From Caldilineales bacterium (GTDB lineage: Bacteria; Chloroflexota; Anaerolineae; J102): DNA of 56,483 nucleotides. The stretch is from positions 1 to 56,483 of the forward strand of contig JAIBAP010000038.1 of the NCBI GenBank assembly GCA_019695115.1, written 5' to 3'. The stretch's first letter is position 1. Each line of letters starts with the position of its first letter. The position numbers and the translations under genes are program-made. Below, in pieces: positions 15,451 to 31,251 of this stretch. Under the pieces are notes generated by a model. The model worked only from the letters and a program-made list of their open reading frames with translations, was not told the DNA's origin and made no database searches.

Positions 15451-17589
15451 ATGAACAACACCCGCCTCGTTCCCACCACCTGCCCCTTCTGCGGCGTCGG
15501 CTGCCAGATTCAACTCAATATCCAGGATGATCGCATCATCCGCGTGACGACCGACTTCGACATGGCCCCGAACTATGGCAAGCTTTGCGTCAAGGGGCGC
15601 TTCGGCACGGATTTCGTCCATCACCCCACGCGGCTGAAGAAACCGCTGATCCGCAAGGACATCGTGCCCGGCCAACCCTTTGGCAAGGCCCGCCGCGCCG
15701 TCTCGCTGGCCGCAGACTATCGCGAGGCCACGTGGGATGAGGCGCTCGACCTGATCGCCGACCAATTGGTGGCCATCTACCGGCAGTCGGGCGGGGACGC
15801 ACTGGGCACCTATTGCTGCGCCAAGGCCACCAACGAAGACAACTACATCTTCCAGAAGCTGTTCCGCACCATCTTCGGCACCAACAATGTCGATCACTGC
15901 TCGCGGCTGTGCCATGCCGGCTCGGTGGCGGGGCTGATGCGCACCATCGGCTCGGCGGCCATGTCCAACAGCATCGAGGAGATGGAGACTCTCGACACCT
16001 TCCTCGTCACCGGCTCCAACACCACCGAAAACCACCCCGTCATCGCCCTCAGCCTGAAGAAAGCGGTGGAGCGCGGGGCCAAATTGATCGTGGTTGATCC
16101 GCGCCACATCGAACTGGTCGATTATGCCGCCCTCTGGCTGCAACAGCGACCGGGGACGGATGTGGCCGTCTTCCACGCCATGGCCAACGTCATCGTCAGC
16201 GAGAAACTGTACGACGCCGACTACATCGCCAGGCATACCGAAGGCTTCGAGGCCTACGCCGCCACCCTGGCGCCCTTCACGCCCGCATGGGCCGAGGGCG
16301 TGAGCGGCGTCCCCGCCGCCAAGATCCGGCAGGCGGCGCGCATGTACGCGCAGGCAGAGACGGCGGCGCTCTATTGGGGCATGGGCATCAGCCAGAGCAC
16401 GCACGGGGCCGACAACGCCACGGCGCTCGTCAACCTGGCCATGATGTGCGGGCATCTGGGCAAATACGGCGGCGGTCTGAATCCGTTGCGCGGACAGAAC
16501 AACGTTCAGGGCTGCTCGGATATGGGCGGGCTGCCCAACGTCCTGCCCGGCTACCGCTTCCTCACCGACCCGGCCGTCCGTCAGCAATTCGAACAAGCCT
16601 GGGGGAGGCCGATCAAGCCCACGCCCGGCCTGACCGCGGTGGAGATGGTGCACGCCGCCGACCGCGGCGACATCCGCGCCATCTATGTCATGGGCGAAGA
16701 CCCCATGACCTCGGAGCCAAACCTGAATCACGCCCATCACGCCCTGGAAAAGCTCGATTTGCTGGTGATCCAGGACATCTTCGCCAACGAGACGGCGCTG
16801 TACGGGCATGTCATCCTGCCGGCGGCCAGCTTCGCCGAGAAATCCGGCACCTTCACCAACACCGAACGCCGGGTGCAGCGAGTGCGGCCGGCCCTGCCCC
16901 CGCCCGGCGACGCTCGCCCCGACCTCGACATCCTCCTCGACCTGGCCCGCCGCCTAGAAGCGCGGCTCGGCATCCATGTGCAGCCGGGGTGGGATTACGC
17001 CGGCCCGGCCGAGGTCTGGGCCGAGGTGGGGCGGCTGGCGCCGGAATTTGCCGGCATCACCTACCAGCGGTTGGAGAAAGTCGGCATCCAGTATCCGTGC
17101 CACGATGAAGACCACCCCGGCACCGTCTGTCTGTTCATGGACGGGGTGCCGCTCGGCAAGGGCAAGTTCTGGCCGCTTGAGTTCCAGCCGCCGGTCGAGA
17201 CGCCCGACGAGGTCTACCCGCTCAATCTTTCCACCGGGCGCGTGCTCTATCATTGGCACGGCGGCACGCTCACCCGCCGCTCGGTCCTCAACGACATCTA
17301 CCCCGAACCCGTCGTCGAGGTCAATCCGGTCGATGCCCATGCCATCCCTGCCGTCACCGGCGACCTGGTGCGCATCGCCTCGCGGCGGGGCGAAGTGGTG
17401 GCCCGCGTCGAAGTCACCGACCGCTCGCCCATCGGCGCCGTCTTCTTGCCCTTCCATTTTGCCGAAGCCGCCGCCAACCTGCTCACGCTCGACGCACTCG
17501 ACCCCGCCGCCAAAATCCCCGATTTCAAGAACACCGCCGTCGCCATCACCCCGGCCGAGGAGCACGGCTGGAAGTTGGTGCTACAATGA
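15451..17589 (+). CDS. fdhA: Formate dehydrogenase-like molybdopterin oxidoreductase, catalytic subunit
   Basis: The protein has 712 residues. A [4Fe-4S] site is formed by C11, C14, C18 and C46 (CPFCGVGC then KLCVKG). The active-site pair reads LCHAGSV with Cys154-His155 where E. coli FdhF has selenocysteine-His, so this is a cysteine enzyme. Molybdopterin-binding parts include TGSNTTENHPV, GMGISQSTHG, RGQNNVQGCSDMG and the C-terminal dinucleotide domain ending in IPDFKNTAVAI. LPAASFAEKSGTFTNTERRVQ is typical of formate dehydrogenases. The length equals FdhF; the extra N-terminal iron-sulfur domains of NAD-linked FdhA are absent, and no electron-transfer subunit is adjacent. The nearby fdhD supports the formate dehydrogenase call over nitrate reductase. 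Confidence 0.88.
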   Translation: MNNTRLVPTTCPFCGVGCQIQLNIQDDRIIRVTTDFDMAPNYGKLCVKGRFGTDFVHHPTRLKKPLIRKDIVPGQPFGKARRAVSLAADYREATWDEALDLIADQLVAIYRQSGGDALGTYCCAKATNEDNYIFQKLFRTIFGTNNVDHCSRLCHAGSVAGLMRTIGSAAMSNSIEEMETLDTFLVTGSNTTENHPVIALSLKKAVERGAKLIVVDPRHIELVDYAALWLQQRPGTDVAVFHAMANVIVSEKLYDADYIARHTEGFEAYAATLAPFTPAWAEGVSGVPAAKIRQAARMYAQAETAALYWGMGISQSTHGADNATALVNLAMMCGHLGKYGGGLNPLRGQNNVQGCSDMGGLPNVLPGYRFLTDPAVRQQFEQAWGRPIKPTPGLTAVEMVHAADRGDIRAIYVMGEDPMTSEPNLNHAHHALEKLDLLVIQDIFANETALYGHVILPAASFAEKSGTFTNTERRVQRVRPALPPPGDARPDLDILLDLARRLEARLGIHVQPGWDYAGPAEVWAEVGRLAPEFAGITYQRLEKVGIQYPCHDEDHPGTVCLFMDGVPLGKGKFWPLEFQPPVETPDEVYPLNLSTGRVLYHWHGGTLTRRSVLNDIYPEPVVEVNPVDAHAIPAVTGDLVRIASRRGEVVARVEVTDRSPIGAVFLPFHFAEAAANLLTLDALDPAAKIPDFKNTAVAITPAEEHGWKLVLQ

Positions 17590-17617
17590 GACATTTTGAT
17601 CACTAGAGGTAGGTTCT

Positions 17618-17797
17618 ATGCGACAGATCGTGATCTATCCCGGCGAGGATGATTATTGGGTGGTCGAATGCCCCAGTTTGCCGGGCTGCATCAGCCAGGA
17701 TCGGACGAAAGAGGAAGCCATTGCCAACGCAAAGGAGGCTATCCGGCTCACCATCGCCGTCCTTGAGGAAGATCATCTCCCTGTTCCTTATGCTTAA
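17618..17797 (+). CDS. HicB-like small protein (orphan antitoxin fold)
   Basis: The protein has 59 residues from ATG 17618 to TAA 17797, beginning MRQIVIYPGEDDYWVVECP. The pattern of two strands, SLPGCISQDRTKEEAI and a following helix ending LPVP is that of the HicB partial RNase H-like fold. HicB normally neutralises the HicA mRNA interferase, but no HicA-like gene is adjacent on either side. The last eight bases overlap the fdhD start (ATGCTTAA), so it is translated in the same operon. It may be a solitary regulator or the remnant of a toxin-antitoxin pair. Confidence 0.75.
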   Translation: MRQIVIYPGEDDYWVVECPSLPGCISQDRTKEEAIANAKEAIRLTIAVLEEDHLPVPYA

Positions 17798-18641
17798 CGA
17801 CCTGCCAACGGGCGCGCTTCCCGTCGCCTACCACTTGTACGAGCGCGGGCGCTGGGCGGAGGTAAATGCCGCCATCGTCGAAGAAACCTCGCTCTGTATC
17901 CACGTCAACGGGCAGGAGTTGGCAACCTACCAGTGCTCGCCCCTCGACCAGGAGGCGATGGCGCTGGGCTTTTTGCGTTCGGAAGGATTGATCGCCGGCC
18001 TCGAAGACATCGCCGTGGTCGAGCTTTCGGGCAGGGGGACGTGCGTGGATGTGTGGCTGAAGAAGGAGGTCGAGCTGCCGCAACGCCGGATCAAGACAAC
18101 CGGCTGTGGCGAAGGGGTGACGTTCGATGACCTCAGCAAGGCGCGGGCGCCGTTGAACGACGAGCTCATGGTCGCGCCCGAACGGATCTTCGCCCTGTAC
18201 GAACAGATGAGCAGAAGGATCGCCCTCTATCCTCTCACGCGCGGCATTCATGCTTCGGCGCTGTGCTCGCCCGAGCAGGCGCTGATCGTGGCCGAGGATG
18301 TGGGGCGGCACAACACACTGGACAAGCTGTGGGGCAAGGCCATGCAGCAGGGGATCAGCGTGACCGGCAGGATCATCGTCACCACCGGGCGGATCAGTTC
18401 CGAGATGCTTGGTAAGGCGGCCAAGATGGGCGTCGGCATCATCGCCTCGCGCACCTCGCCCACCAGCCGTTCGACCGGCCTGGCCCGCGCCTGGAATATC
18501 ACGGTGGTGGGCTATCTGCGCCGCGAGAGTATGCGCGTCTATTCGGCGCCGCAGCGACTGTGCGCACCGGGGACGGCAGCGCCACTGTCAGTGACCGTGC
18601 CGCCATCATCCGACCTCGTCGCGTCTGGCGTAGGACCCTGA
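17790..18641 (+). CDS. fdhD: FdhD, formate dehydrogenase sulfurtransferase accessory protein
   Basis: The protein has 283 residues from ATG 17790 (MLNDLPTGALPVAYHL), whose start overlaps the HicB-like gene by eight bases. FdhD transfers sulfur from a cysteine desulfurase to the molybdenum cofactor of formate dehydrogenase. Landmarks are VEETSLCIHVNGQEL, LALGFLRSEGLI-type helix, the loop KTTGCGEG with Cys106, and the strongly conserved AEDVGRHNTLDK and TTGRISSEMLGKAAKMGV. The E. coli CxxC pair is reduced to one cysteine here (CGEG), a variation seen outside enterobacteria. About 35 C-terminal residues beyond the fold have no recognised role. The cyclase gene starts 11 bases downstream. Confidence 0.92.
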   Translation: MLNDLPTGALPVAYHLYERGRWAEVNAAIVEETSLCIHVNGQELATYQCSPLDQEAMALGFLRSEGLIAGLEDIAVVELSGRGTCVDVWLKKEVELPQRRIKTTGCGEGVTFDDLSKARAPLNDELMVAPERIFALYEQMSRRIALYPLTRGIHASALCSPEQALIVAEDVGRHNTLDKLWGKAMQQGISVTGRIIVTTGRISSEMLGKAAKMGVGIIASRTSPTSRSTGLARAWNITVVGYLRRESMRVYSAPQRLCAPGTAAPLSVTVPPSSDLVASGVGP

Positions 18642-18652
18642 GTTTTGCCGCC

Positions 18653-21600
18653 ATGCCTGACCAAATGCGTTGGCTTGTCCCGCACACGATCCTTTACCAC
18701 CACGCCCGCAACCAGCAGCGTGGGCGTTTGCGGGCGGCCTCGATGTTCGTGGACATCTCCGGCTTCACGCAGCTGACCGAGACCCTGATGCAGCATGCCA
18801 AAGACGGAGCCGAGGTGTTGACCGAGGTGCTGAACAGCATCTTCCACCCCATCGTGCAGGAGGTTTACGACCACGGCGGCTTCATCTCCACGTTCGCTGG
18901 CGATGCCTTCACCGCCCTCTTCCCGCTGCGGGAGCCAGAAGCGGTTGTGCACGCCACCCAGACCGCCTTCTTCGTCAGCGAGTTCTTCGCCCGCAATCGG
19001 CTGGTCGAGACCAAATACGGGAGCTTCGAGCTGGGGGCCAAGGTGGGGCTGGGGGTAGGGCGGGTGGAGTGGGGCATCCTCGGTCAGGGGATGCACGCTT
19101 TCTACTTCCGCGGCGAAGCGGTGGATGAGTGTGCTGCCAGCGAACACCACGCCAGCCGCGGCGAGATCGTGGCCAGCCAGATGCTGGTGGACAAGTTGGG
19201 CGGGCAGGCGTCGGCGGTCGCTGTTAGCGGCGGTTTTGCCCGGCTGCTGAGCCTCGATGCCGCCGTTTTGCCGCGCTTGCGCCGGCGGCCCCGGCCGGCG
19301 CGAGGCGCCCTGGCCCCCTTCCTGCTCGACGCTGTCATCGATCTGACGCAGCGGGCCGAATTCCGCACTGTCGCCAGCATCTTCCTCGCCTTCGATGAAC
19401 CGGGCGACGAGAAGGCTCTCGATGCCTTCACCTCAGAGGTGCTCGAACTGGCCCGCCGCTATGGCGGCTACTTCAATAAGATGGATTTTGGCGACAAGGG
19501 CGGGGTGATGTTGCTCTTGTTTGGCGCACCCACATCGTACGAAGACAATCTCGCCCGCGCCGCCAATTTCCTGCTGGCGCTGCGGGGCGAGGGGGAGCGG
19601 GCGGAGGTGAGCTGGCGGGCGGGGCTGACTTTCGGCACCGTCTATGCGGGGATCATGGGCGGTGAAGAACGCTGTGAATACACGGCCATCGGCGACATCG
19701 TCAACCTGTCGGCGCGGCTGGCCATGCACGCCGCCTGGGGCGAGGTCTGGGCCAGCGCCGAAGTGCGGTCGCTCCTGGCCGGCGACTACGACTTCGAAAC
19801 CCAGGGCAGCCATCAGTTCAAGGGCAAGGGCGCGGCGTTGGAGGTCTTTCGTCTGCTCCGCCGCAAGGAAGTGGGCGAGAAACTCTATGCCTCGCCCATG
19901 TTTGGCCGCCAGCACGAGATGTCGGTTCTGCACTCGTTCCTGGCACCAATGCTGGAGCGGGGGCGCTTCGCCGGCCTGATCTACGTCTATGGCGAACCCG
20001 GCATGGGCAAGAGCCGGCTGGTGTATGAGGTCAGACAAGACCTGGCGAGCAGACATGCCCTCGGCTGGGCCTACTGCCCCAGCGAAGGCGTCCTCCGCCA
20101 ATCGCTTAACCCGATCGTCTACTACCTACGCGGCTTCTTTGGCCAGTCCAAAGAGCAAAGCGAGGACGAGAACAAAGCCCGCTTCGGCGCCGCCCTGACC
20201 GGGCTGATCGGCCGGCTGCCGGACAACCCAGAGGGGGCCGAGCTGGGGCGAGAATTGGATCGCACCCGCTCGATGTTGGGCGCGCTGGTCGACCTGCGCT
20301 GGCCCGGCTCGCTCTACGAAACCCTCGAACCCAAACTGCGGTTCGAGAACACGCTCACCGCCCTCGTCAGCCTGATGCAGGCCGAGAGCCGACTGCATCC
20401 GCTGGTGATCGAGATCGACGACGGCCAGGTGATGGACGCCGACACGGCCAACCTGCTGCAACTCCTCACCCGCGAGGCGGCCGATTTTCCCGTCGCCTTC
20501 ATCGTCAGCGCCCGCTACCGCGACGACGGCAGCAAGTTCCGAGTGCAAGTGGATGAAGCGGTGGCGGTGAGCGAGGTTGATCTGAACTATCTGGCCGCCA
20601 ATGACCTGCGTGCTTTTGCCGAGCAGTCGCTGGGCGAAGTCCTGGCCGATGACGTAGTCGATCTGCTGGCCGAAAAAACGAACGGCAACCCCTTCTTCAT
20701 CGAGCAATTGGCGCTCGACCTGCGGGAACGAAAACTGCTGGTTGTCGACCCGGGCGGGAAAGGCCTGACCCTGGCCCCGGCCTACGCCACCGAGGTCCCC
20801 ACCACGATCACGGCCGTGCTGGTGGCCCGGCTCGACCGTCTCTCGGCTGCGATCAAACAGGTGGTGCAGACGGCGGCCGTGTTGGGCCGGGAGTTCGAGC
20901 TGCTGGTGCTGTCGCACATGCTGCGCGGCGACGCCGAAATGAGAACAAAGGTGGCCGCAGCAACCGGACAGGATATTTGGTCGGCGGTGGATGAACTGCG
21001 CTATCTGTTCAAGCACGCCTTGCTGCGCGATTCGGCCTACGACATGCAGTTGCGCGCCCACCTGCGCGGGCTGCACCAGGCCGCCGGCGAAGCCTTCGAG
21101 ACCGTCTATGCGCGCGATCTTGCCAGCCGCTATGTCGACCTGGCCTACCACTTCGAGCAAGCGGGCGTCGTCGACAAAGCCCGGCGCTACCTGCACCAGG
21201 CCGGCGATCAGGCCAAGGCCAACTACCTGAACCAGATGGCGCTTTCGCTCTTCGAGCGGCTGTTGGCACTGCTCGACCCGCACGACCCGGCGCGGGCAGC
21301 TGTCTACGAACAGCGGGGCGAGATCTACGCCACCATCGGCGAGCACGACCTGGCCCTGCAACAGTACAAGGCGGCGCTGGCCAGCCTGAGCGCCAACACC
21401 GGCCTAGCAGTCGATCGCGAGGCGCCTGGGCTTTACCGCAAAGTCGGCCTGGTGTACATGAACAAGGGCGAGTATGCGGTGGCCTTCGAGTGGATGGGCC
21501 GGGCCGAGCGCATAGCGTTGGAAGCTGGCAATACCGAGATGGCTCGCATCCACACCGCCACCGCCGCCGTGCTCTACCGGCAAGGCAAGGCCACCGAGGC

Positions 21601-22573
21601 CCTGAGCCGCTGCCAGATGGGTTTGGAGATCGCCGCCCAACTGAACGAGGCGGCTGAGATCGCCTACGGCCACATGCTGCGCGGCACCATCCACACCGGG
21701 CTGGGCCAGCTCGACGAAGCCATCGCCGACTACGAGCAGAGCCTGGCCCTGAGCCGCAACCTGGGCGATTTGCAGCAACTGACGAAGGCCGACAACAGCC
21801 TCGGCGCCGTCTACTACTACAAGGGCGACTGGGAGCGCGCCATCCATCACTATCGCCAGAGCCTGGAGGTGGCCGAGAAGATCGGTTATGTCGACCAACA
21901 GGCTACCGTGTCCAACAACCTGGGCGAGATCTTCATCATCCAGGGTCGGCTGGCCGAGGCCGCCGCCGCCTTTCAGAGTTGCCTGAATACCTGGCGGCGC
22001 ACTGGTTTTCAGGTGGGGGTGGCGCTCTCGTATTGGAACCTGGCCCAGGTTGCGGTCATGAGCGAGGAATGGCAGGCGGCCCTCGACCACCTGCAACGCA
22101 GCCTGGAAACGCTCGAACGTCTCGGCGCGCGCGATTGGCTGACAGCCGAGGTCTATCGGCTGCTGGCCGAGGTGCACCTGGGGTTGGGCAAACTGGCCGA
22201 GGCCTGGCGCTACGCCGATCAGTCACTCGAAATCGCGACCACACAGGACCTGAAGCTGATCGAAGGCAACGCCCGCCGCGTCCAGGGTCGCCTCCACCGC
22301 GAACACAATCGCTGGCAAGAAGCCGAACAAGCCTTGCTGGCCAGCCTGAAACTGGCCGAAGAACTGGGCATCCGCCACGAGCAAGGGCAGGCGTTGATTG
22401 AGTTGGCGCATCTCTATCGGGCCTGGGAGCAGACCGAAGCAATCGACGCCCACGAAAGCACGGTGGAGGAGATTTTGAACCGCGCCATCACGCTGTTCGA
22501 AGAACTGGACGCGCGCTGGCATCTCGACAGGGCGCGGGCCTTACGCGCAGAAATCAGGGCGATCGGAGGCTGA
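18653..22573 (+). CDS. Soluble-adenylyl-cyclase-like protein: two cyclase domains, AAA/STAND ATPase, TPRs
   Basis: The protein has 1306 residues from ATG 18653. Cyclase domain 1 (about 28-205) keeps the metal Asp in MFVDISGFTQLTE (D34) and GGFISTFAGDAFTALF (D84), but has ECAASEHHA where transition-state Asn/Arg are expected. Cyclase domain 2 (about 238-410) lacks the first Asp (IFLAFDEPG) but has YTAIGDIVNLSARLA with Asn and Arg. The two would complement in one composite site, as in mammalian soluble adenylyl cyclase, which shares this C1-C2-ATPase-TPR order. Walker A GEPGMGKS is at 447-454, Walker B-like LVIEIDDGQ follows, then a GREF winged segment, with TPRs from about 820 to the end. It is cytosolic, and the TPR/ATPase part probably senses a signal. 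The crp gene starts after 9 bases. Confidence 0.88.
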   Translation: MPDQMRWLVPHTILYHHARNQQRGRLRAASMFVDISGFTQLTETLMQHAKDGAEVLTEVLNSIFHPIVQEVYDHGGFISTFAGDAFTALFPLREPEAVVHATQTAFFVSEFFARNRLVETKYGSFELGAKVGLGVGRVEWGILGQGMHAFYFRGEAVDECAASEHHASRGEIVASQMLVDKLGGQASAVAVSGGFARLLSLDAAVLPRLRRRPRPARGALAPFLLDAVIDLTQRAEFRTVASIFLAFDEPGDEKALDAFTSEVLELARRYGGYFNKMDFGDKGGVMLLLFGAPTSYEDNLARAANFLLALRGEGERAEVSWRAGLTFGTVYAGIMGGEERCEYTAIGDIVNLSARLAMHAAWGEVWASAEVRSLLAGDYDFETQGSHQFKGKGAALEVFRLLRRKEVGEKLYASPMFGRQHEMSVLHSFLAPMLERGRFAGLIYVYGEPGMGKSRLVYEVRQDLASRHALGWAYCPSEGVLRQSLNPIVYYLRGFFGQSKEQSEDENKARFGAALTGLIGRLPDNPEGAELGRELDRTRSMLGALVDLRWPGSLYETLEPKLRFENTLTALVSLMQAESRLHPLVIEIDDGQVMDADTANLLQLLTREAADFPVAFIVSARYRDDGSKFRVQVDEAVAVSEVDLNYLAANDLRAFAEQSLGEVLADDVVDLLAEKTNGNPFFIEQLALDLRERKLLVVDPGGKGLTLAPAYATEVPTTITAVLVARLDRLSAAIKQVVQTAAVLGREFELLVLSHMLRGDAEMRTKVAAATGQDIWSAVDELRYLFKHALLRDSAYDMQLRAHLRGLHQAAGEAFETVYARDLASRYVDLAYHFEQAGVVDKARRYLHQAGDQAKANYLNQMALSLFERLLALLDPHDPARAAVYEQRGEIYATIGEHDLALQQYKAALASLSANTGLAVDREAPGLYRKVGLVYMNKGEYAVAFEWMGRAERIALEAGNTEMARIHTATAAVLYRQGKATEALSRCQMGLEIAAQLNEAAEIAYGHMLRGTIHTGLGQLDEAIADYEQSLALSRNLGDLQQLTKADNSLGAVYYYKGDWERAIHHYRQSLEVAEKIGYVDQQATVSNNLGEIFIIQGRLAEAAAAFQSCLNTWRRTGFQVGVALSYWNLAQVAVMSEEWQAALDHLQRSLETLERLGARDWLTAEVYRLLAEVHLGLGKLAEAWRYADQSLEIATTQDLKLIEGNARRVQGRLHREHNRWQEAEQALLASLKLAEELGIRHEQGQALIELAHLYRAWEQTEAIDAHESTVEEILNRAITLFEELDARWHLDRARALRAEIRAIGG

Positions 22574-22582
22574 GAAAGATCA

Positions 22583-23296
22583 ATGTCCGCGCTCGCCATC
22601 TTGCAGCAGACTCCGGGTTTCGCCGATCTGCCCACGCCCGATTTGGTCGATCTGGCAGACAGGATGAGCCAGCGCACTTTTGCACGGGGGATGATCATTT
22701 TCCATAAGGGCAGCATCGGCCAGAGCCTCTATCTGATCGGCTCCGGCCATGTACGGATTTTTCTGCTTAGCGAGACGGGTCGCGAGATTTCGCTCGAAGT
22801 TTTGTCTCGTGGCGATTACTTTGGCGAATTGGCGCTGCTAGACAATCTGCCGCGCTCGGCCGGGGCGCTGGCCATGGAGCGAACGGTGACGTATACCCTG
22901 CAGCGCGAGGATTTCTGGCGGCTGCTCGACGCCCACCCCAGGCTGGCTCTGCCGATGTTGACGCTGATGGGAAAGCGGCTTCGGCAGATGATCGACTATG
23001 CCGAGCATCTGGCCTTTACCGATGTGCAGGGTCGAGTGGCGGCCAAGCTCCTGGAGTTGGCGGAGCGCTTTGGCGAGACGACAGGTGGGGCAAGCGGCGG
23101 AGGCGGAGCGGGCATCGATCTCGTGTTGCCGATGACGCAGGGCGAGCTGGCAACCTGGGTAGCATCCAGCCGCGAGAGCGTGAACAAGGTGTTGGGAGTT
23201 TTCCGGGACCAGCGTTTGATCCGGCTGGACGGGCAGCACATCGCCATCCTCGACCAGCGCGGCCTGCGGCGGTGGCTGGCCAGCGCCAGGGTGTGA
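22583..23296 (+). CDS. Crp/Fnr-family cyclic nucleotide-responsive regulator
   Basis: The protein has 237 residues. The N-terminal cNMP-binding domain has the phosphate-binding cassette GDYFGELALLDNLPRSAG with E82, R91 and S92, the residues that hold cAMP in Crp. A dimer helix follows (about 115-160). The C-terminal Crp-type winged helix reads MTQGELATWVASSRESVNKVL. The ASSRE recognition helix keeps the Arg-Glu pair that reads GTG/CAC half-sites in E. coli Crp. A low-complexity GGASGGGGAG loop lies between the domains. It sits directly after the cyclase gene, so cAMP is its likely ligand. A perfect Crp consensus site overlaps its own stop codon. Confidence 0.92.
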   Translation: MSALAILQQTPGFADLPTPDLVDLADRMSQRTFARGMIIFHKGSIGQSLYLIGSGHVRIFLLSETGREISLEVLSRGDYFGELALLDNLPRSAGALAMERTVTYTLQREDFWRLLDAHPRLALPMLTLMGKRLRQMIDYAEHLAFTDVQGRVAAKLLELAERFGETTGGASGGGGAGIDLVLPMTQGELATWVASSRESVNKVLGVFRDQRLIRLDGQHIAILDQRGLRRWLASARV

Positions 23297-23307
23297 TGAA
23301 GTTCACA
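23292..23307. promoter_or_regulatory. Perfect Crp-type operator TGTGA-N6-TCACA
   Basis: The dyad TGTGA TGAAGT TCACA is identical to the E. coli Crp consensus in both half-sites. It overlaps the stop codon of the crp gene (TGA 23294-23296) and lies 21 bases before a -35-like box. Its centre is about 64 bases upstream of the start point predicted from the -10 box, close to class I Crp spacing. The upstream regulator has the matching recognition helix residues. Confidence 0.75.
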
Positions 23308-23328
23308 GCCAGATGGTGAGCGACCTCA

Positions 23329-23357
23329 TTGGCGGCAAGGATAAAGGGGTGTATGCT
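23329..23357 (+). promoter_or_regulatory. Sigma70-like promoter for the repeat peptide gene
   Basis: TTGGCG (23329-23334) and TATGCT (23352-23357) are separated by exactly 17 bases. They lie 50 bases before the start codon and downstream of the Crp site. The boxes match consensus at 4/6 each, so this is a plausible activator-dependent promoter. Confidence 0.55.
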
Positions 23358-23406
23358 GCCCCCATCAATCCCACTTCCTCCACACCACACAAAGGAGAAT
23401 TTCTCG

Positions 23407-24573
23407 ATGACAACCGAAGCTGTACAGAGCATCATTGGCCGGGCCGTCACCGAAGCGGCCTTCCGCTCCGCTCTCTTTGCCGATCCCGATCAGGCATTGG
23501 CCGGTTATGCGCTGACCGACGCAGAAAAGGCATCATTGCGAGCGATCGATTTCGAGACGATGGATTCATTTGCGGGCGCGCTGGATGATCGCATCTCCAA
23601 GGCGTTTGCCCTCGGTTCGCTTTTTGGCGCCGACATGGGTGCGGCGGCATTGGGCGGCATGGATGCTGGCAGTTCTGCGGGGGCGGGCCTGGGAGCGGCT
23701 GATCCGGCCGGGTCTGGCGCTACCGGATTCGCGGCCTGGGATCCGGGCAATTCCGGCGACGCCGGATTCGCTGCCTGGGATCCGGGCAATACTGGCGACG
23801 CCGGATTCGCTGCCTGGAGTCCGGATAATGCCGGAGCAGGATTGGGCGCTGACGCAGGCAGCGCCGGCAGCGTAGGCCTGGGCGCTGATGCAGGCAGCGC
23901 CGGCAGTGTCGGCCTGGGCGCCGACGCCGGTAGCGCCGGCAGCATGGGTCTAGGGGCTGATGCAGGCAGCGCCGGCAGCGTGGGCCTGGGCGCCGATGCT
24001 GGCAGCGCTGGCAGCGTGGGCTTGGGCGCCGATGCTGGCAGCGCCGGCAGCGTGGGCTTGGGCGCCGATGCTGGCAGCGCCGGCAGCGTGGGCCTGGGCG
24101 CCGACGCCGGCAGCGCCGGCAGCGTGGGCTTGGGCGCCGACGCCGGCAGCGCCGGCAGCGTGGGCTTGGGTGCCGATGCTGGCAGCGCCGGCAGCGTGGG
24201 CCTGGGCGCTGATGCTGGCAGCGCCGGCAGCGTAGGCCTGGGCGCTGATGCTGGCAGCGCCGGCAGCGTAGGCCTGGGCGCCGATGCCGGCAGTTCTTCA
24301 GTCCCGTTCGCAGATGGTAGCATTGGCATGGGCGCGGATGCGGGCAGTTCGGCTGGTGCGAGCGCCGGGGCGAGTGCAGGCAGTTCGGTCGTCGATGGCA
24401 GCATCGGCATGGGCGCAGATGCTGGTAGTTCGGCTGGTGCAAGCGCTGGAGCGAGTGCAGGCAGTTCTTCAGTCCCGTTCGCAGATGGTAGCATTGGCAT
24501 GGGCGCGGATGCGGGCAGTTCGGCCGGGGCGGGCCAGATCGGCTTTGCCTCCGAGATCATGCGCAACCCCTGA
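23407..24573 (+). CDS. Repeat-rich peptide with Franean1_4349-type RiPP leader-like N-terminus
   Basis: The protein has 388 residues from ATG 23407 with AAAGGAG nine bases upstream. Residues 1-70 look like a leader of the Franean1_4349/NHLP-like RiPP precursor group: IGRAVTEAAFRSALFADPDQAL, then LTDAEKASLRAIDFETM and FAGALDDRISKAF. The rest is low complexity: three 13-residue GFAAWDPGNSGDA units (about 107-145), twelve 12-residue GADAGSAGSVGL units (147-290), then longer GSIGMGADAGSSAGASAG blocks. There is no Cys and no signal peptide. It could be a precursor with repeated core peptides, or a large repetitive surface protein exported through a leader. The next gene encodes a PqqD-like/M50 protease, the type of partner expected for a leader peptide. 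The RiPP assignment is by resemblance only. Confidence 0.7.
   Translation: MTTEAVQSIIGRAVTEAAFRSALFADPDQALAGYALTDAEKASLRAIDFETMDSFAGALDDRISKAFALGSLFGADMGAAALGGMDAGSSAGAGLGAADPAGSGATGFAAWDPGNSGDAGFAAWDPGNTGDAGFAAWSPDNAGAGLGADAGSAGSVGLGADAGSAGSVGLGADAGSAGSMGLGADAGSAGSVGLGADAGSAGSVGLGADAGSAGSVGLGADAGSAGSVGLGADAGSAGSVGLGADAGSAGSVGLGADAGSAGSVGLGADAGSAGSVGLGADAGSAGSVGLGADAGSSSVPFADGSIGMGADAGSSAGASAGASAGSSVVDGSIGMGADAGSSAGASAGASAGSSSVPFADGSIGMGADAGSSAGAGQIGFASEIMRNP
23725..23838 (+). repeat. Three 39-bp repeats (GFAAWDPGNSGDA)
   Basis: Three tandem units starting at 23725, 23764 and 23803 encode 13 residues each with Trp-Asp-Pro or Trp-Ser-Pro. The third drifts into the following 36-bp repeat block. 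Confidence 0.85.
23845..24276 (+). repeat. Twelve 36-bp repeats (GADAGSAGSVGL)
   Basis: Twelve exact-period 36-bp units encode GADAGSAGSVGL, with one Met for Val in unit 3. Unlike the 120-bp TPR repeats, these units carry many synonymous differences (GAT/GAC, GCT/GCC, GTG/GTC/GTA), so the amino-acid sequence appears to be under selection. A thirteenth, altered unit begins at 24277. Confidence 0.93.
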
Positions 24574-24647
24574 AACCACCATCGCGGATGCTGAGCTTAT
24601 CTGCCAAACTGCGCTCTGTGACCGTAGGATAGACAAACTGCTGTTCG

Positions 24648-24686
24648 GGCGCTGGATTGCCGGCAAGGTGCCGGCAATCCAGCGCC
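24648..24686 (+). terminator. 17-bp perfect hairpin between peptide and protease genes
   Basis: GGCGCTGGATTGCCGGC (24648-24664) pairs perfectly with 24670-24686 around the loop AAGGT, followed by TTTGCTGTTG. It sits 74 bases after the peptide gene and 24 bases before the protease start. It may be a partial terminator or mRNA 3' stabiliser, so that more peptide than protease is made. Confidence 0.72.
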
Positions 24687-24710
24687 TTTGCTGTTGCACC
24701 GGAGTCGGAT

Positions 24711-27700
24711 ATGGAGAACTCGACCATGTGGAACCAGATTACCGAAGCCGTCCGGCAGCCGCCGCGCAGGACGGGCTTGTGGGCCTGGCTGGCCGCCAAA
24801 GTAGACCTGGCCCAATACCGGCCGCAGGCGGCGCCTGGGGTGGAGGTCAGCCATTTGCAGGGGCGCGAGGGCGAGTATTATGTGATCAAGAATCCCGCTG
24901 CCAAGACCTATTACCGGCTGAACGACAAGGATTTCTTCCTCTGGCAGCAGATGGATGGCACGAAAAGTGTCAAAGACCTGGTGATCGCCTTTTTCACCGC
25001 CTATGGTTCCTTCGCCTTCCCCCGTGTGGCAACGCTGGTGCAGGGTCTGAAAACAAACCTCCTTCTCAGCGATCAGCCGGCGGGCGTCTATCAAGCAACG
25101 CATCGCCAACTTGAGCAACGCCGCCCCGACCATTGGTTGAACTCACTCTGGCAGGGATTCTTGCAGCGACCCTTCGCCATCGATGGGCTGGATGGGATCA
25201 TCGGCGGGGTCTATCGCCGCGTGGCCTGGCTGTTCTACACCCGTATCGTTCAAATCCTCTTCCTCCTCATCAGCATCCTGGGCCTGGTCGCCTTTGTCCG
25301 CTTGATGAGGGCGGGCGGTCACAACTTGTTCAGAAGCGGTGGGTCGGTGTTGCTTGGGCTACTCAGCCTTCTCATCGCCAATATGGTCGTCATCTTCGTC
25401 CACGAAATGGGTCACGCGCTAACCGTCAAACACTACGGTCGCGAGGTGCGACGGGCCGGGTTTATGATCTACTTTGGCATGCCTGCCTTTTTCGTCGATA
25501 CCACCGACATCTGGATGGAAGCCAAACGCGGTCGTCTGGCCGTCACCTGGGCGGGGCCTTATATCAACCTCGTTTGTAGTGGGTTGGCGGTCATCCTCCT
25601 TACCCTTTGGCCGGCGATGCGAGGCGCCGGTTTCCTTTTCCAGTTCGCTTTCCTGGGCTACCTCATTGTCTTCGTCAACCTCAACCCGCTGCTGCAACTG
25701 GATGGCTACTATCTGCTGATGGATTGGCTGGAAATCCCGCTGCTGCGCTTCAAATCCCTCAGCTTCTTGCGCGAGGGTTTGCCCAAGAAATTTCGTCGCC
25801 CCGACCCCACAGCGCCGGGACGAGCGCGCTTCGCCCTGCCTTCGCTCTCGGCCTTTTCGCGCGAAGAGCGGATTTTCGCTGTTTTCGGGCTGCTTTCGGC
25901 CATTTGGTCGGTCTATGCCATCTATCTGGCCGGCTCCTTCTGGCAGCGGCAACTCGCCAACTCGGTCAACGCCCTCCTTCGGCAAGGTAATGATGCCGGC
26001 CGCTTTGCCGCTGCACTCGGCGGCGTAGCCATCAGCCTGCCCTTTGTCCTCGCCCTGGGCTTTGCGGCTTTCGCTCTGGGCCGCGGCTTGCTGAAATCGC
26101 TGGCGCGCAAGGGGGTCTTTGCCAGCAATACCCGCGTCGCCGTGCTCCTGGCTGCAGGCGCCCTCGGCCTCAGCCTCGCCCCTCGCCGGCTGGCGGCGCC
26201 CATTCTGGTCACAGGTCTGAGCCTGGCCGCCCTGATCGTCGCTGTGATCATGGCCGCTCGCAACATCCGCGTTTATGCCGGGGCGCGCAGGGTCTGGCAT
26301 TTCTGGCTGCTGGGCGGTTTGGCGGCGCTGTTGTTGGCGGTCGAGGCAGCGACGATGGCTGGCTGGCTGGCGCCCGATTTGTTCTGGTTGATCAACCTGG
26401 CCCTCACCGTACTGGCGCTGGCATCGTTGGCCGGGGCGTTGTTCGAGTTCACCGCCCGCGGGCGGACGAGTTTTGGCCCGGCCTGGATTCTGATCGGCCT
26501 CGGCCTGGCCTCGGCAGCGCTTGCCACCCTCCTGAGGTCCGCCGCCCCCGAATTGCTTGTACTCGGCTTGCTCCTGCTGGCCACCGGACTCTTTTTGTAC
26601 GATCTATCCTCGCGACGTCTTCAGCTGACGCTGCCACGACCCGATTTCGCTGCCGATCTCGATGACGAAGTGCGTTTACAGCGGGCGGTCGGTTGGATGA
26701 TGAACGGCATCAACCATGTGGTTGGCGAAATCTCAGGCCCACGAGCCGAAAGACGAGTGCGGGCGCGATTGCAGGGCAATGCCGCCACGGCCGGCTGGCG
26801 CATCGGCATCGATGCTTCAGACACGCGCCCCCCCGCCGATATGACGCTGGCCGAGCAGGGGCGCGAGTCGGCAGAGGCTATGAATGTGCTACTCGAACTG
26901 GTGCAGGCCGAGATCGGCGATAAGCTGACAACCAGGACGCTCCAACATGCCTATGACTTGCTTCCCTGGGAAGAACGCGAGATCGGCGCTGAAGTCCTCT
27001 TTCCCCAGGTCGAGCGGGCGGCGGCGCTCAGCCGCGATTTCAGGGATACGCGCAACGACTACACGGCCCTACTGCGCCAAATGCCACTCTTTGCCAGCAT
27101 GACCGCCCACGAGATCCAACTACTCGCGCGGCGGTTGAAAGCCACGACGCACCCCGCCGGCGAGGTCATCATCCGCCAGGGAGAGACCGGAGATCGCTTC
27201 TACATCATCAAACAAGGTGAGGTGGAGGTCAGCCGGGCGGACGAGCGCGGCGTGACCGAGGTGGTGGCGCGGCTCCACCGCGGCGACTACTTCGGCGAGT
27301 TGGCCCTCCTGGCTGACGCCCCCCGCAATGCCACCTGCCGCGCCCTCATTTCCACACAGACTGTGGCCCTCAGTCGCCGCGAGTTCGAGCTGCTGGTGAA
27401 GAACCGCTTTGCCATGCGCGAAAAGCTGGACAGGTCGATCACCCACGCCGACCTGTTGCGCCGCATCCCCCTGTTCGACGAACTGGATGGGCGGCAAATC
27501 CAGCAGCTCACCGCCGAATTGCATCCACGCCAGCTTGAGGCCGGCGTCGAGTTGATCCGCCAGGGCGAGGAAGGCGACGCCTTCTACATCATCGAGGCCG
27601 GGCGGATGCAGGTGTCGGTCGGCGAGCTGGGCCAGGAGCGCATCGTGCGCGAGTTGGGGCCGGGTGAATATGTGGGCGAGGTGGCCTTGCTGCACAAGGT

Positions 27701-27869
27701 GCCGCGCACGGCCACGGTGCGGGCGCTGACGGCGGGACGGGTGTTGGTGCTGGACAAAGAATCGTTCGACCGTTTCGTTTCCATGCATTTGCAGGCGGGT
27801 CGCATGCTAGAGCGCACAGCCAGCCGCCATCTGGTCGATTCGCGCCGGGCGGCGCTCTCAGCCGCCTGA
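24711..27869 (+). CDS. PqqD-like/M50 membrane metalloprotease fused to two cNMP-binding domains
   Basis: The protein has 1052 residues from ATG 24711 with GGAG upstream. Residues 35-110 resemble the PqqD/RiPP-recognition fold (YYVIKNPAAKTYYRLNDKDFFLWQQMDGTKSV, with breaks, then LVIAFF). A membrane domain follows: HEMGH zinc motif at 231-235, DIWMEAKRGRLAVTWAGPYIN, and the third-ligand motif NLNPLLQLDGYY with Asp331, as in S2P/M50 site-2 proteases and 'putative peptide zinc metalloprotease' proteins. About ten more membrane helices reach residue 650. After a cytosolic linker come two cNMP domains (about 788-895 and 918-1030) with intact cassettes, FGELALLADAPRNAT and VGEVALLHKVPRTAT, both holding the Glu and Arg that bind cyclic nucleotide. 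Likely role: cAMP-gated cleavage or export of the upstream peptide. The domain calls are strong; the role is inference. Confidence 0.85.
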   Translation: MENSTMWNQITEAVRQPPRRTGLWAWLAAKVDLAQYRPQAAPGVEVSHLQGREGEYYVIKNPAAKTYYRLNDKDFFLWQQMDGTKSVKDLVIAFFTAYGSFAFPRVATLVQGLKTNLLLSDQPAGVYQATHRQLEQRRPDHWLNSLWQGFLQRPFAIDGLDGIIGGVYRRVAWLFYTRIVQILFLLISILGLVAFVRLMRAGGHNLFRSGGSVLLGLLSLLIANMVVIFVHEMGHALTVKHYGREVRRAGFMIYFGMPAFFVDTTDIWMEAKRGRLAVTWAGPYINLVCSGLAVILLTLWPAMRGAGFLFQFAFLGYLIVFVNLNPLLQLDGYYLLMDWLEIPLLRFKSLSFLREGLPKKFRRPDPTAPGRARFALPSLSAFSREERIFAVFGLLSAIWSVYAIYLAGSFWQRQLANSVNALLRQGNDAGRFAAALGGVAISLPFVLALGFAAFALGRGLLKSLARKGVFASNTRVAVLLAAGALGLSLAPRRLAAPILVTGLSLAALIVAVIMAARNIRVYAGARRVWHFWLLGGLAALLLAVEAATMAGWLAPDLFWLINLALTVLALASLAGALFEFTARGRTSFGPAWILIGLGLASAALATLLRSAAPELLVLGLLLLATGLFLYDLSSRRLQLTLPRPDFAADLDDEVRLQRAVGWMMNGINHVVGEISGPRAERRVRARLQGNAATAGWRIGIDASDTRPPADMTLAEQGRESAEAMNVLLELVQAEIGDKLTTRTLQHAYDLLPWEEREIGAEVLFPQVERAAALSRDFRDTRNDYTALLRQMPLFASMTAHEIQLLARRLKATTHPAGEVIIRQGETGDRFYIIKQGEVEVSRADERGVTEVVARLHRGDYFGELALLADAPRNATCRALISTQTVALSRREFELLVKNRFAMREKLDRSITHADLLRRIPLFDELDGRQIQQLTAELHPRQLEAGVELIRQGEEGDAFYIIEAGRMQVSVGELGQERIVRELGPGEYVGEVALLHKVPRTATVRALTAGRVLVLDKESFDRFVSMHLQAGRMLERTASRHLVDSRRAALSAA

Positions 27870-27913
27870 TTCCAACACCCAAACGCACCTACGAGTCGCC
27901 CTTCACCCTCCGC

Positions 27914-27951
27914 CTCATCGTCCATCGTCCTCCGTCCTCCGTCCATCGCCC
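27914..27951. repeat. Heptanucleotide array, TCCATCG/TCCTCCG type
   Basis: Five to six 7-base units (TCCATCG, TCCTCCG) follow the protease gene in the 178-bp gap before the zinc-finger gene. No gene or clear terminator is seen in the rest of the gap. Confidence 0.8.
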
Positions 27952-28047
27952 CATCCTGCGCGAAATGCGCCGCCAATCAAGCTGACCTGGGTTGCAATTT
28001 GCTGATGCGGCGCTGCCGCTCATACAATGGCCGTATGAGGAGGCGCT

Positions 28048-28260
28048 ATGAACTGCTGGCATTGTGATCGCCCCGCCCACGCCTGTTGCCGTTTCTGCGG
28101 GCGGGCTGTGTGCAAAGAACATACCCAGGTTTTTCCCCACATCGAAGCCATCTACCGCAACGATCAGGGCGCATACAAGGCCCTGGTGGTGGCGAATGCT
28201 GTCTATTGCGGCGCCTGTCAGCCGCGCGAAGACCCTATCGATCTGCCGCCGTTACCCTGA
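28048..28260 (+). CDS. Small zinc-finger protein (B-box/DUF2180-like)
   Basis: The protein has 70 residues from ATG 28048 with a GAGGAGG ribosome site. Cysteine and histidine pairs occur as CWHC, CCRFCGRAVCKEH and a C-terminal CGAC, enough for two zinc sites in a cross-brace as in B-box or DUF2180 proteins. The segment CRFCGRAVCKEH is the characteristic part. Such proteins are small cytosolic binding modules of unknown function in archaea and Chloroflexota. The 223-bp gap downstream holds no recognisable feature. Confidence 0.72.
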   Translation: MNCWHCDRPAHACCRFCGRAVCKEHTQVFPHIEAIYRNDQGAYKALVVANAVYCGACQPREDPIDLPPLP

Positions 28261-28483
28261 AGCGCACGAAGACGACGGCCAGGAGAGGCTTGGGGAGAGG
28301 CCGACGAGAACTCGGGCCACTGAGTCGCGGCCTGGGGTCGTGAAGCCCGCCGCCGGGGGCCTCGGCAGGCGCAGAAAAAGGAGTCACGCCACTTTGAGCA
28401 GACGGTCAACATTGGTATGATGAACAGTCGCGCTTTCTGCGCCCTGCTTTCCCCACCCCCGACCGCACTCAGGCCCCATCCGC

Positions 28484-29626
28484 ATGCCCGACCCCATCCT
28501 CGCCCCCGGCCTCATCCCCGAACCGCCCGCCGTCCCCCTGGTCGATCGCGGCGCCGGCTTCAAAGAAGGAACCGCCCTCTACCTGGTGCGGCACGGCGAA
28601 TCGATGACCAACACCTACGAGAACATCCACGCCTTCGACCCCAACCTGACGGCGTTGGGGTGGGCGCAGGCGCTGGCCGTGGCCGGGTGGATGGCCGAGC
28701 AAACGCCGGTGGATGTGGTCGTGACCTCGCCCCTCCGTCGAGCCTTCAGCACCGCCCTGGCCATCGCCCATGCTCAGGGCCTGAAACCGGTGGAGATGCC
28801 CGGTCTGGAGGAGTTCAGCCACGAGTTCTGGGATGAGATGCCCTTCCATCACCCCACCCGCCCCTGGTGGGGCCGGCTGGACTGGGAGCCGACCTTCGAG
28901 CAGGCCCCCATCTTCGTTGCCTTCCGCGACCGCGTCTATCAGGCCCTGGCCGAAGTGCTGGAACGATTCGGCGGCCAGCGCATCTGCCTGGTCAGCCACG
29001 GCGGCACCATGAGCGTGCTCACGGCGGCGATGGTCGGCAGCCAGCACCTGGGGGTGTGGAACGCCAACACCGGCGTCAGCCTCTTCGTCTGGCCGGAATG
29101 GAAGCGCTGGCTGGTGCACTACATCAACCGCACCGAACACCTGCTCAGCCTGGACGCCAGGCGCTTTCCCCGACTCGAAGGCGCCCTGCCAACCGACAAC
29201 GGCCTCTGGCGGCTGCCCGACTCCCCCACCCGTCCGCAGGTCGATCCTCGCCTCGGCTACCTGGCCAATCTCCTCCAGCGCAAACACCGCATCCTCTTCC
29301 TGTTCCCGCCCGACCCGTTCACCCCCGTGCGCGTCTCGCTGCGCGCCCGGCGGGCCATGGTCGTCGGCGTCGACCCGTTGGCGCTGGAAGCCGGCGAAGC
29401 CCATCGCGCCCGGCTCAACGCCAACCATATCCGCTTCGAGCACCTCTTCCTGCCCCTGCCCTACCCTGACGGCTACTTCCACTTCGTCGTCTTGGGCGAG
29501 CACCCTGCCCTGGCCGCGGTAGAAGCCAGCGGCGAGATCGCACGCGTACTTGGCGAGGACGGCAGGATCATCCGCCCGGCCGCCCTCACTGGCGAGACCG
29601 TAGCCATCCCCAACGGGCTCTCGTGA
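28484..29626 (+). CDS. Histidine phosphatase fused to a methyltransferase-like C-terminal domain
   Basis: The protein has 380 residues. The N-terminal half (about 28-215) is a histidine phosphatase: YLVRHGESMTNT with the phospho-accepting His, the second Arg in SPLRRAFSTAL, and the later CLVSHGGTMSVL. The C-terminal part (about 265-370) retains the end of a class I methyltransferase: VVGVDPLALEAGEAH, LPLPYPDGYFHFVVLGEHP and EIARVLGEDGRII. The SAM-binding glycine loop is replaced by FLFPPDPFTPVRV, so methyltransferase activity is doubtful. The fusion is unusual. It is followed by a GT39 gene with a four-base GTGA overlap, which suggests work on a phosphorylated sugar or lipid intermediate. Confidence 0.8.
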   Translation: MPDPILAPGLIPEPPAVPLVDRGAGFKEGTALYLVRHGESMTNTYENIHAFDPNLTALGWAQALAVAGWMAEQTPVDVVVTSPLRRAFSTALAIAHAQGLKPVEMPGLEEFSHEFWDEMPFHHPTRPWWGRLDWEPTFEQAPIFVAFRDRVYQALAEVLERFGGQRICLVSHGGTMSVLTAAMVGSQHLGVWNANTGVSLFVWPEWKRWLVHYINRTEHLLSLDARRFPRLEGALPTDNGLWRLPDSPTRPQVDPRLGYLANLLQRKHRILFLFPPDPFTPVRVSLRARRAMVVGVDPLALEAGEAHRARLNANHIRFEHLFLPLPYPDGYFHFVVLGEHPALAAVEASGEIARVLGEDGRIIRPAALTGETVAIPNGLS

Positions 29627-31251
29627 TCCGGCAACCATCGGCTGTTGCCCACCTCACGCTCCGGAGCGATGGGTGGCTGGCGTTGGGCTTCACCGCCTTC
29701 GGCCTCATCGTCCGCCTGTTCTGGGTCTTGCGGCCCCGCGCCGTCCATTGGGACGAGCCTGACTATCTGCTCCTGGCCCGCAATCTCCTGCGCGGCCAGG
29801 GCTACCAGATCCTCGGCCTCCCCGAAACCCATCTCCCCCCCATCGCTCCCTGGCTGGCGACGGCGTCGCTGGCCCTGGGGACACCCGTCGACCTGGCCAT
29901 GAGCCTGTGGCACGCCCTGGCCGGCGCCCTCTTCTGCGGGCTGATCTTCCTCATCGCCCTGGACATCGGCGGCCACCGGCCGGCGGCCTTGTGGACCGGT
30001 TTGCTGGCTGTCGTGGCCTCGCCGCTCGTCGTCCGCCCCCTCTACTGGGGCAGCATGACCGAATCGCTGTTCTTGCTCTGGCTCTGGCTGGGGCTGTGGG
30101 CGGTCTGGCGGCTGCTGCACGGCGGGAGCTGGCGGGCCGGGCTGGCCGCGGGCCTGGCCCTGGCCCTCAGCTATCTCACCCGACCCGAAGGTCTGCTGTG
30201 GTGGGCGCTGTTTGCCGCCGTCGCCCTGGCCCTGGTCATCGGCCGGCGCGAGTTCCGCCGGCAGGTCTGGCCGGGTCTGGCCCTCTACCTGCTCGTCTTC
30301 CTCCTCCTATCAGGCAGCTACTGGCTCTACCTCTACCGCAGCACCGGCCAATTCCTGATCAGCGGCAAAACGGGCATCACCCTGCTCCAGGCCGAGAGCG
30401 TCAACAAAGATGTGAGCGTCGTCCTCGACAGTTCCGGCCAGGAGGTCTTGTGGCTGTCGCCCGAGCGCTACCAGATCGGCATCGCCTCATCGGTCGAAAG
30501 TGACCCACTTGGCCTGCTCAAGCGTTTTGTCGCCAATCTCCGCAATCTGCCAGGCGCAGTCCTCGGCGCCCTGGTTCCCGTCCACCTCCTGGTCTTGATC
30601 GGTCTGGGGTTGTGGGCGCAACCGTGGGGGCGAAAGCAGCTGGTCGAGCAGGCGTTCTGGCTGGCCTGTCTGCTGCCGCTGGCCATCGTCCCTCTAACGC
30701 ACCTGCTACCCCGCCTGCTTGTGCCCTTGCTGCCGGTGGCGCTGGTCTGGGCAGGGCAGGGCGTGCAGCGGCTGGTGGAGTGGGGTCGCGGCGCCGCCTG
30801 GCCCTGGCCGCGGCTGAGCGGGCAGATGCCCCGGCTGCTTGCCTGGCTCTGGCCGCTCTTGCTGGCCCTGTTCCTGGTCGCTCTGGCCGCCAACAGCCAG
30901 ATCGACGACGAACGGGCCGGCCAGGCCACGATCACCCCCGGCCACAAACAGGCGGGCCTGTGGTTGGCCGCCAACAGCCGGCCCGACCAGGCCATCATGA
31001 CTCGCAACAGCGAGATCGCCCTCTACGCCGACCGTCCCCTGGCCCCACTGCCCAACGCCGAACTCGACCAGGTGCTCGACTACGCCCGGCGACACAAGGC
31101 CGGTTTCCTGGCCATCGATGACATCGAGCTGCGGCTGCTGCGGCCGCAGTTCGCCCACATCGCCGAACCCGGCCAAACCCCACCCCAACTCGAACAAGCG
31201 GCCGTCTTTCCCGGCCCCATGCGCACCACCTACATCTTCCGCTTCCACTGA
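29623..31251 (+). CDS. GT39/ArnT-like polytopic glycosyltransferase
   Basis: The protein has 542 residues from GTG 29623, overlapping the phosphatase stop by four bases. About eleven membrane helices are predicted by eye. The first outside loop has HWDEPDYLLLARNLL, the acidic motif after helix 1 that binds the lipid-phosphate sugar donor in GT-C enzymes. A soluble C-terminal domain (about 420-542) includes MTRNSEIALYADR. It probably transfers a sugar from a polyprenyl-phosphate carrier outside the membrane. uvrA starts nine bases downstream and may share the transcript. Confidence 0.83.
   Translation: MIRQPSAVAHLTLRSDGWLALGFTAFGLIVRLFWVLRPRAVHWDEPDYLLLARNLLRGQGYQILGLPETHLPPIAPWLATASLALGTPVDLAMSLWHALAGALFCGLIFLIALDIGGHRPAALWTGLLAVVASPLVVRPLYWGSMTESLFLLWLWLGLWAVWRLLHGGSWRAGLAAGLALALSYLTRPEGLLWWALFAAVALALVIGRREFRRQVWPGLALYLLVFLLLSGSYWLYLYRSTGQFLISGKTGITLLQAESVNKDVSVVLDSSGQEVLWLSPERYQIGIASSVESDPLGLLKRFVANLRNLPGAVLGALVPVHLLVLIGLGLWAQPWGRKQLVEQAFWLACLLPLAIVPLTHLLPRLLVPLLPVALVWAGQGVQRLVEWGRGAAWPWPRLSGQMPRLLAWLWPLLLALFLVALAANSQIDDERAGQATITPGHKQAGLWLAANSRPDQAIMTRNSEIALYADRPLAPLPNAELDQVLDYARRHKAGFLAIDDIELRLLRPQFAHIAEPGQTPPQLEQAAVFPGPMRTTYIFRFH

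Follow-up and report, generated by a model that had tools for sequence, protein, structure and literature searches.

The window analysed here is the complete 56,483-nucleotide contig JAIBAP010000038.1 of a Caldilineales bacterium, a member of the Anaerolineae within the Chloroflexota, and the system in question is a run of genes on its forward strand in which cyclic-nucleotide signalling components stand next to a leader-tagged repeat protein and a membrane protease. In this order, the genes encode a class III cyclase resembling soluble adenylyl cyclase (sAC) (18653..22573), after a gap of 9 bp a Crp-family regulator (22583..23296), a leader-repeat protein of 388 amino acids (23407..24573), a membrane protease (24711..27869) and a 70-residue Cys/His (zinc-finger-like) protein (28048..28260). 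An operator overlaps the crp stop codon, and a hairpin lies between the leader-repeat and protease genes. A previous inspection of the letters alone, the sequence-only reading, had proposed that the first four genes form a peptide maturation circuit controlled by cyclic AMP (cAMP). All features that it listed are present where it had placed them, and the four genes and their order are as claimed, but it missed the conserved fifth gene just past position 27869.

The Crp-family protein was assigned by Pfam, by PDB matches to GlxR and Mycobacterium tuberculosis CRP and by ortholog alignment. It contains the phosphate-binding cassette FGELALL..PRSA with its Arg-Ser pair (FGELALLDNLPRSA), and its recognition helix reads SSRESVNKVL. 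The nearest solved relatives, mycobacterial CRP and GlxR, share the RE.VNK helix, and their consensus site, which we take to be TGTGAN6TCACA, is matched perfectly by the operator TGTGATGAAGTTCACA at 23292..23307 (no strand assigned), just as the sequence-only reading had described it. These two proteins are global regulators, whereas the sole intergenic perfect site in the window genome is this local one. A perfect site occurs three times in the 6.0-Mb genome, which is about chance level, and the two others sit within coding open reading frames (ORFs). The count by itself was therefore dropped as evidence, and the case for the operator rests on conservation rather than on the motif. Five related loci (L088, L089, L093, L096 and L162; in our numbering L stands for loci and G for genomes) also have a perfect TGTGAN6TCACA site, and in every case a Crp gene belongs to the cluster. 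The site directly precedes the leader gene except in L088, where it directly precedes a small ORF in front of that gene. By chance, 0.54 perfect sites were expected in the 1.25 Mb scanned around related proteases; five were observed, all at the leader-gene position. All six operator-linked Crp proteins have the recognition helix RESVNK in common; in L090, a nearby Crp has RGRVNR instead and the perfect site is absent. The gene order is crp-operator-leader-protease in the window, L088 and L089, but crp-protease-Cys/His-operator-leader in L093, L096 and L162. Thus, the operator tracks the leader gene and not the end of the crp gene.

Further elements of a regulated transcription unit are recognizable. 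A -10-like box (TATGCT, 23352..23357, forward strand) follows 60 bp after the operator start, and a -10-like hexamer at 59-60 bp is found in five of the six loci, with a joint score that none of 2000 shuffles reached. With this spacing, the operator is centred at about -63 to -65, not far from the -61.5 of class I activators, and transcription is predicted to start about 12 bp past 23352. All six loci carry TGTGAN6TCACA at activator spacing before a gene, as in CRP-regulated promoters. Downstream of the leader gene, a perfect hairpin of 18-19 bp (24647..24687, forward strand; -42.9 kcal/mol, z -6.9) is a probable terminator or attenuator. In all five readable loci (window, L088, L089, L093 and L096), a perfect hairpin (11-18 bp) whose sequence is unrelated between loci stands behind the leader gene, as expected for a terminator yielding more precursor than protease. 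An Rfam scan of positions 17000-30000 returned no RNA family. On these sequence comparisons the link between Crp and the peptide gene is strongly supported.

The product of the gene behind the operator begins with a leader (residues 1-65) that belongs to the Os1348 family of the NHLP clan, since it exceeds both curated cut-offs (NF038399, 72.5 bits against 40; PF14407, 50.0 against 48). The leader is followed by a Cys-free core of 320 residues, rich in Gly, Ala and Ser and with a period of 12. The repeats are encoded by a minisatellite of 12.5 tandem copies of 36 bp (23843..24293, forward strand; Tandem Repeats Finder) specifying GADAGSAGSVGL units, in agreement with the leader-like peptide with 12-residue repeats noted before. 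Long repeat products of 171-388 amino acids are encoded in all six Crp-type loci, with units of about 12, 7, 13, 5, 5 and 5 residues, and the core in L162 is a pentapeptide-repeat domain (PF00805, 79 bits). Cysteine is absent from all six cores. Chloroflexota leader genes that are linked to the protease but not to Crp mostly specify proteins of about 80 amino acids. The units change freely from locus to locus, whereas leader and protease are conserved; for this reason, a fibrous product, secreted or on the surface, seems more probable than small free peptides. The namesake of the family, Os1348 of Pseudomonas, is an 85-residue protein encoded in the cluster Os1348-1351 under Gac control (PMC7726476). 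The window locus differs from this cluster by the long repeat core, Crp control and the multidomain protease.

The protease combines four parts. Residues 41-118 (24831..25064, forward strand) are predicted to fold as a PqqD-like recognition element of the type found in systems for ribosomally synthesized and post-translationally modified peptides (RiPPs), i.e., a RiPP recognition element (RRE). The model shows a beta3-alpha3 arrangement with a predicted local distance difference test score (pLDDT) of 94.5. Its best structural matches are lasso-peptide B1 RREs with bound leader (Z 9.7-10, 74 residues aligned, root-mean-square deviation 2.7-2.9), followed by sactipeptide synthase RREs, a lantibiotic dehydratase and PqqD itself (3g2b, Z 7.0). 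The window protein stays below the Pfam PqqD cut-off, and 13 of 27 relatives match that model (best 2.5e-8). A sequence-profile search of the PDB with this region returned only designed beta-trefoils, which we discarded as a spurious short match; the assignment is accordingly by predicted fold, and the domain was folded alone because a fold search with the whole protease listed only structures of cyclic nucleotide-binding domains (CNBDs). An RRE in the M50 protein had been named as a test of the original proposal and is borne out at this level. The M50 core contains the zinc motif HEMGH (25401..25415, forward strand; HExxH, H231) and the partner motif LDGYY (D331). H231, E232, H235 and D331 are invariant in alignments, as is typical of M50 or site-2-type proteases, and the core matches mjS2P (3b4r, E 6.4e-7). 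In the full-length model (pLDDT 84.5), RRE and M50 core are followed by additional long hydrophobic helices, a helical linker and two CNBDs (27099..27866, forward strand; Pfam, 162 bits in two stretches), which match the regulatory tandems of PKA and PKG. Both carry the cassette GE[LIV]ALL..PR[STN]A (GELALLADAPRNA and GEVALLHKVPRTA), so that the two intact nucleotide pockets claimed for the protease hold. The N and T in these cassettes occupy what we take to be the position that helps to choose between cAMP and cGMP in PKA and PKG. Most relatives linked to Crp retain both cassettes, whereas most loci lacking Crp have degenerate ones.

According to Pfam, the cyclase consists of two cyclase homology domains, an AAA_16 ATPase and TPR repeats. 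The nearest solved structures are those of human ADCY10 (E 2e-22), which shares the architecture of two cyclase domains with catalytic residues followed by ATPase and TPR. An alignment with 4cm2 covering both catalytic domains recovers equivalents of D47, D99, K334, T405, N412 and R416, in what we take to be the ADCY10 numbering. Judged by sequence, the protein therefore has what defines a class III sAC-like enzyme, namely two metal-binding Asp, the Lys/Thr adenine pair and the Asn/Arg pair. It differs from ADCY10 in that the equivalents of K95 and R176 in the bicarbonate site are replaced. Class III cyclases were found in six protease loci (window, L088, L050, L090, L093 and L094) and in none of the others; in genome G092, a cyclase lies near a leader gene on another contig. 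Six cyclases in 25-30 leader-linked loci correspond to P values of about 6e-5 to 2.5e-3 at a background of 2.4 cyclase domains per Mb, the background being taken from 11 relatives and the loci being counted by hand. The architectures vary (sAC-like two-domain, zinc-ribbon/AAA/TPR and CHASE2), which argues for selection on the product and not for shared descent of one gene block. In genome G076, the only class III cyclase detected genome-wide is the one in the protease locus. The association of a cyclase with the set, proposed from a single locus, is thus supported.

Searching 84,980 species genomes with the PqqD-M50 part of the protease yielded 80 loci. Gene families were set by targeted profiles, since all-against-all ORF clustering was swamped by overlapping false frames. 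In a class-wide search the protease was present in 36 of 396 genomes. An Os1348-type leader gene occurs in 32 of these 36 and in 78 of the 360 others (Fisher P 9e-16, an optimistic value as the genomes are related). Among 104 protease loci, some of them on short contigs, 39 have a leader gene at a distance of up to 6 kb, and the Cys/His gene lies within 2 kb of 46 of the 104 M50 genes, on the same strand in 45. Conservation of the neighbourhood in relatives, on which the original proposal depended, was found: in six loci of distant Chloroflexota genomes, a Crp ortholog and a perfect site upstream of the Os1348/NHLP-leader gene are joined by an adjoining M50 gene. The order M50, Cys/His, leader is also seen in Micromonosporaceae isolates (L132, L136, L139, L140, L146, L148, L152, L155, L158 and L166). 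Here, the leader proteins have 230-446 amino acids, several end in D-rich repeats that by eye resemble Ca-binding repeats, and the proteases are devoid of intact CNBDs. Actinoplanes and Dactylosporangium are examples of genera that retain all three genes.

With promoter, RRE fold, protease motifs, intact pockets and gene linkage supported at the sequence level, we consider it reasonably probable that the locus specifies a Crp-switched leader-repeat protein which is processed by the RRE/M50 protease, the latter being gated or localized by cyclic nucleotide from the linked cyclase. The dedicated Crp would bind the operator beside its own gene and activate a short, hairpin-terminated transcript for the repeat polypeptide. 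The RRE domain at the protease N-terminus would dock the Os1348/NHLP leader, and the M50 domain would cut the precursor at the membrane, remove the leader and perhaps help to release or export the Gly/Ala/Ser-rich region, with no modification enzyme involved. The small Cys/His protein may be an accessory protein or chaperone, which is a guess. Finally, the PKA-like CNBDs would gate or localize the protease in response to the product of the sAC-like cyclase, presumably cAMP, and thereby couple signal and processing.

The locus is best read as a variant of RRE/M50 leader processing, working like epipeptide and daptide systems with an added second-messenger layer. In those systems, the maturation of leader-tagged peptides falls to M50 proteases; for EpeP, both cleavage and export of EpeX have been proposed (PMC10885120). 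The window protease shares the M50 architecture of the daptide protease (NF041824, 145.3 bits, match beginning in the PqqD-like region) and of the epipeptide proteases EpeP/YydH (NF058609, 52 bits), but scores far below the equivalog cut-offs of 300 and 225, respectively, and adds two CNBDs and extra membrane helices. The daptide partner enzyme was not seen among the neighbours checked. As the daptide equivalog cut-off was missed and no modification enzyme is linked, we did not file the locus under either system. Cyclic-nucleotide modules beside RiPP-like loci have precedents in bacteriocin-transport-associated CNBD proteins (TIGR03896; window 91 bits, cut-off 161) and TOMM kinase/cyclase fusions (TIGR03903; window 180 bits, cut-off 706). 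The window is below both cut-offs, and its sensor is fused to the protease. In line with the claim that the combination is new, we found no description of it in the open-access PMC literature, although an unindexed one is possible.

Several observations weigh against this interpretation, most of them concerning its cyclic-nucleotide part. The window Crp carries Met-Ile in place of the C-helix cAMP contacts Thr127-Ser128 (TS motif), and the L096 and L162 proteins have His instead of Arg at the R82 equivalent. The cyclase-containing loci L050 and L094 have no motif-intact CNBD, and the strict motif is present in only one of the two CNBDs in L096, L162 and L090. Actinobacterial and Chloroflexales relatives of the protease lack intact CNBDs, and no cyclase was present in L096 and L162 within the sequence examined. 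Moreover, most genomes of the family to which the window belongs lack the gene set, and a linked exporter was not found among the neighbours checked. E. coli CRP becomes active without cAMP (CRP*) after hydrophobic TS-motif substitutions (PMC11253593), and T127I and T127L recur among such alleles (PMC2743635). The "intact cAMP pocket" assigned to the window Crp therefore applies to the phosphate cassette and not to the C helix. Of the two actions originally ascribed to cAMP, the one on transcription is weakened in this genome, where the transcription arm may work without it. Since either the TS motif or R82 is replaced in these proteins, control of transcription by cAMP is not a requirement that all members share; as a coactivator, cAMP is plausible for some of them but doubtful for the window genome. 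The joint circuit thus stands as regards conserved neighbourhood, predicted RRE and the links of Crp and cyclase to the set, and is doubtful here as regards cAMP-controlled transcription.

Taken further, the same replacements and the degenerate CNBDs of most protease relatives could mean that the protein is Crp-switched and RRE/M50-processed as proposed, but that the cyclic-nucleotide parts are vestigial or serve another ligand, with a constitutive Crp and structural or membrane-tethering CNBDs. We regard this as unlikely, because the cassettes are intact in most Crp-linked members, cyclases of varied architecture are enriched at protease loci and Thr-Thr is retained at the TS motif in the L088 and L089 Crps. 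Mycobacterial CRP and GlxR keep the Thr of the TS motif.

A further possibility concerns the product. The leader belongs to a RiPP precursor family, an RRE is predicted in the processing protein, and multi-core precursors occur in other RiPP classes, so that the repeats could be multiple cores of a true RiPP, which would be set free as small peptides of the GADAGSAGSVGL kind and modified by enzymes whose genes lie at another place in the genome. However, Pfam detected no RiPP-modifying enzyme or peptide exporter among the window genes at about 13.8-34.2 kb, and modification enzymes were likewise not found among the scanned neighbours in L090, L093, L096 and L162. In addition, none of the six Crp-type cores contains Cys, and the wholly different repeat units, one forming a pentapeptide-repeat domain, suggest a folded or fibrous product. 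A true RiPP is therefore improbable. PADLOC models for PycC and for PycTIR/TIR effectors match the cyclase (59.7 bits) and the CNBDs (68.7 and 72.7 bits) and would fit a Pycsar-type defence or abortive system with the M50-CNBD protein as effector. This is very improbable, since the matches reflect general domain similarities, the cyclase has the adenine-type K334/T405 equivalents, an RRE protease with a linked leader peptide would have to act as effector, and many members of the protease family have no linked cyclase. That a cyclase-Crp pair merely happens to neighbour an unrelated leader-protease pair, as the chance-level operator count and the same-family genomes without the set might suggest, is disfavoured by the comparative data and very improbable given the recurrence of Crp, operator, leader and protease in six loci and the enrichment of cyclases.

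Returning to the signal-gated processing of a Crp-switched repeat protein, the links at the promoter and in processing are, on sequence evidence, well supported. We tentatively suggest that this could be the first second-messenger-gated RRE protease, releasing repeat polypeptides, secreted or on the surface, that are built of 12-mer, 13-mer, heptad-like or pentapeptide units without a modification enzyme taking part, in a module present in Chloroflexota and, without sensors, in Actinobacteria. Leader processing of the RiPP kind is usually assumed to run constitutively as soon as its genes are expressed; the protease of this locus bears its own signal sensors. With signal maker and transcriptional switch in the same locus, a single second messenger could govern the supply of the product as well as its release. 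The arrangement also suggests that RRE-guided proteolysis serves long repeat proteins and not just small modified peptides, and it provides a testable function for the widespread orphan set of Os1348 leader, M50 protease and 70-residue Cys/His protein in Chloroflexota and Micromonosporaceae.

The locus is flanked by fdhD (17649-18641) and a histidine-phosphatase gene. Further neighbours identified by Pfam are a molybdopterin oxidoreductase, a PMT_2-type membrane glycosyltransferase and uvrA. In L093 (7150-9216), L096 (7248-9224) and L162 (4732-6708), a gene for a lipoprotein-like protein with an InhA-like MAM domain and about 660-690 amino acids runs into the start of crp, sharing about 26-32 bp with it, and seems to belong to the operon. 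In genome G019, of the same genus as the window genome, the protease survives as remnants spread over two frames (L048, 6494-9217); the Cys/His gene is present, but there is neither a leader gene nearby nor an operator. Judging from the sequence, this is a decayed or partial copy. Genomes of family f35 (L057-L079) encode the M50 protease without a linked leader, and a leader gene for 70-100 amino acids is located elsewhere in the same genome. In G076 (L049, 3797-5128), an M16 peptidase gene lies between the leader and M50 genes; a search for relatives around this genome yielded only three genomes. In L197 (1886-1901), an unlinked leader match has a perfect TGTGAN6TCACA on its downstream side, at a distance of about 210 bp. 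The window genome itself has a second Os1348-type leader gene on contig 74 (L084, 8927-12921), directly before the gene for a 1190-residue AAA-TPR-pentapeptide protein without cyclase domain, and a third on contig 55. Contig 82 of the same genome (L086, 8707-11817) carries a sarcosine-oxidase-like ORF with an in-frame AGRGDL repeat array.

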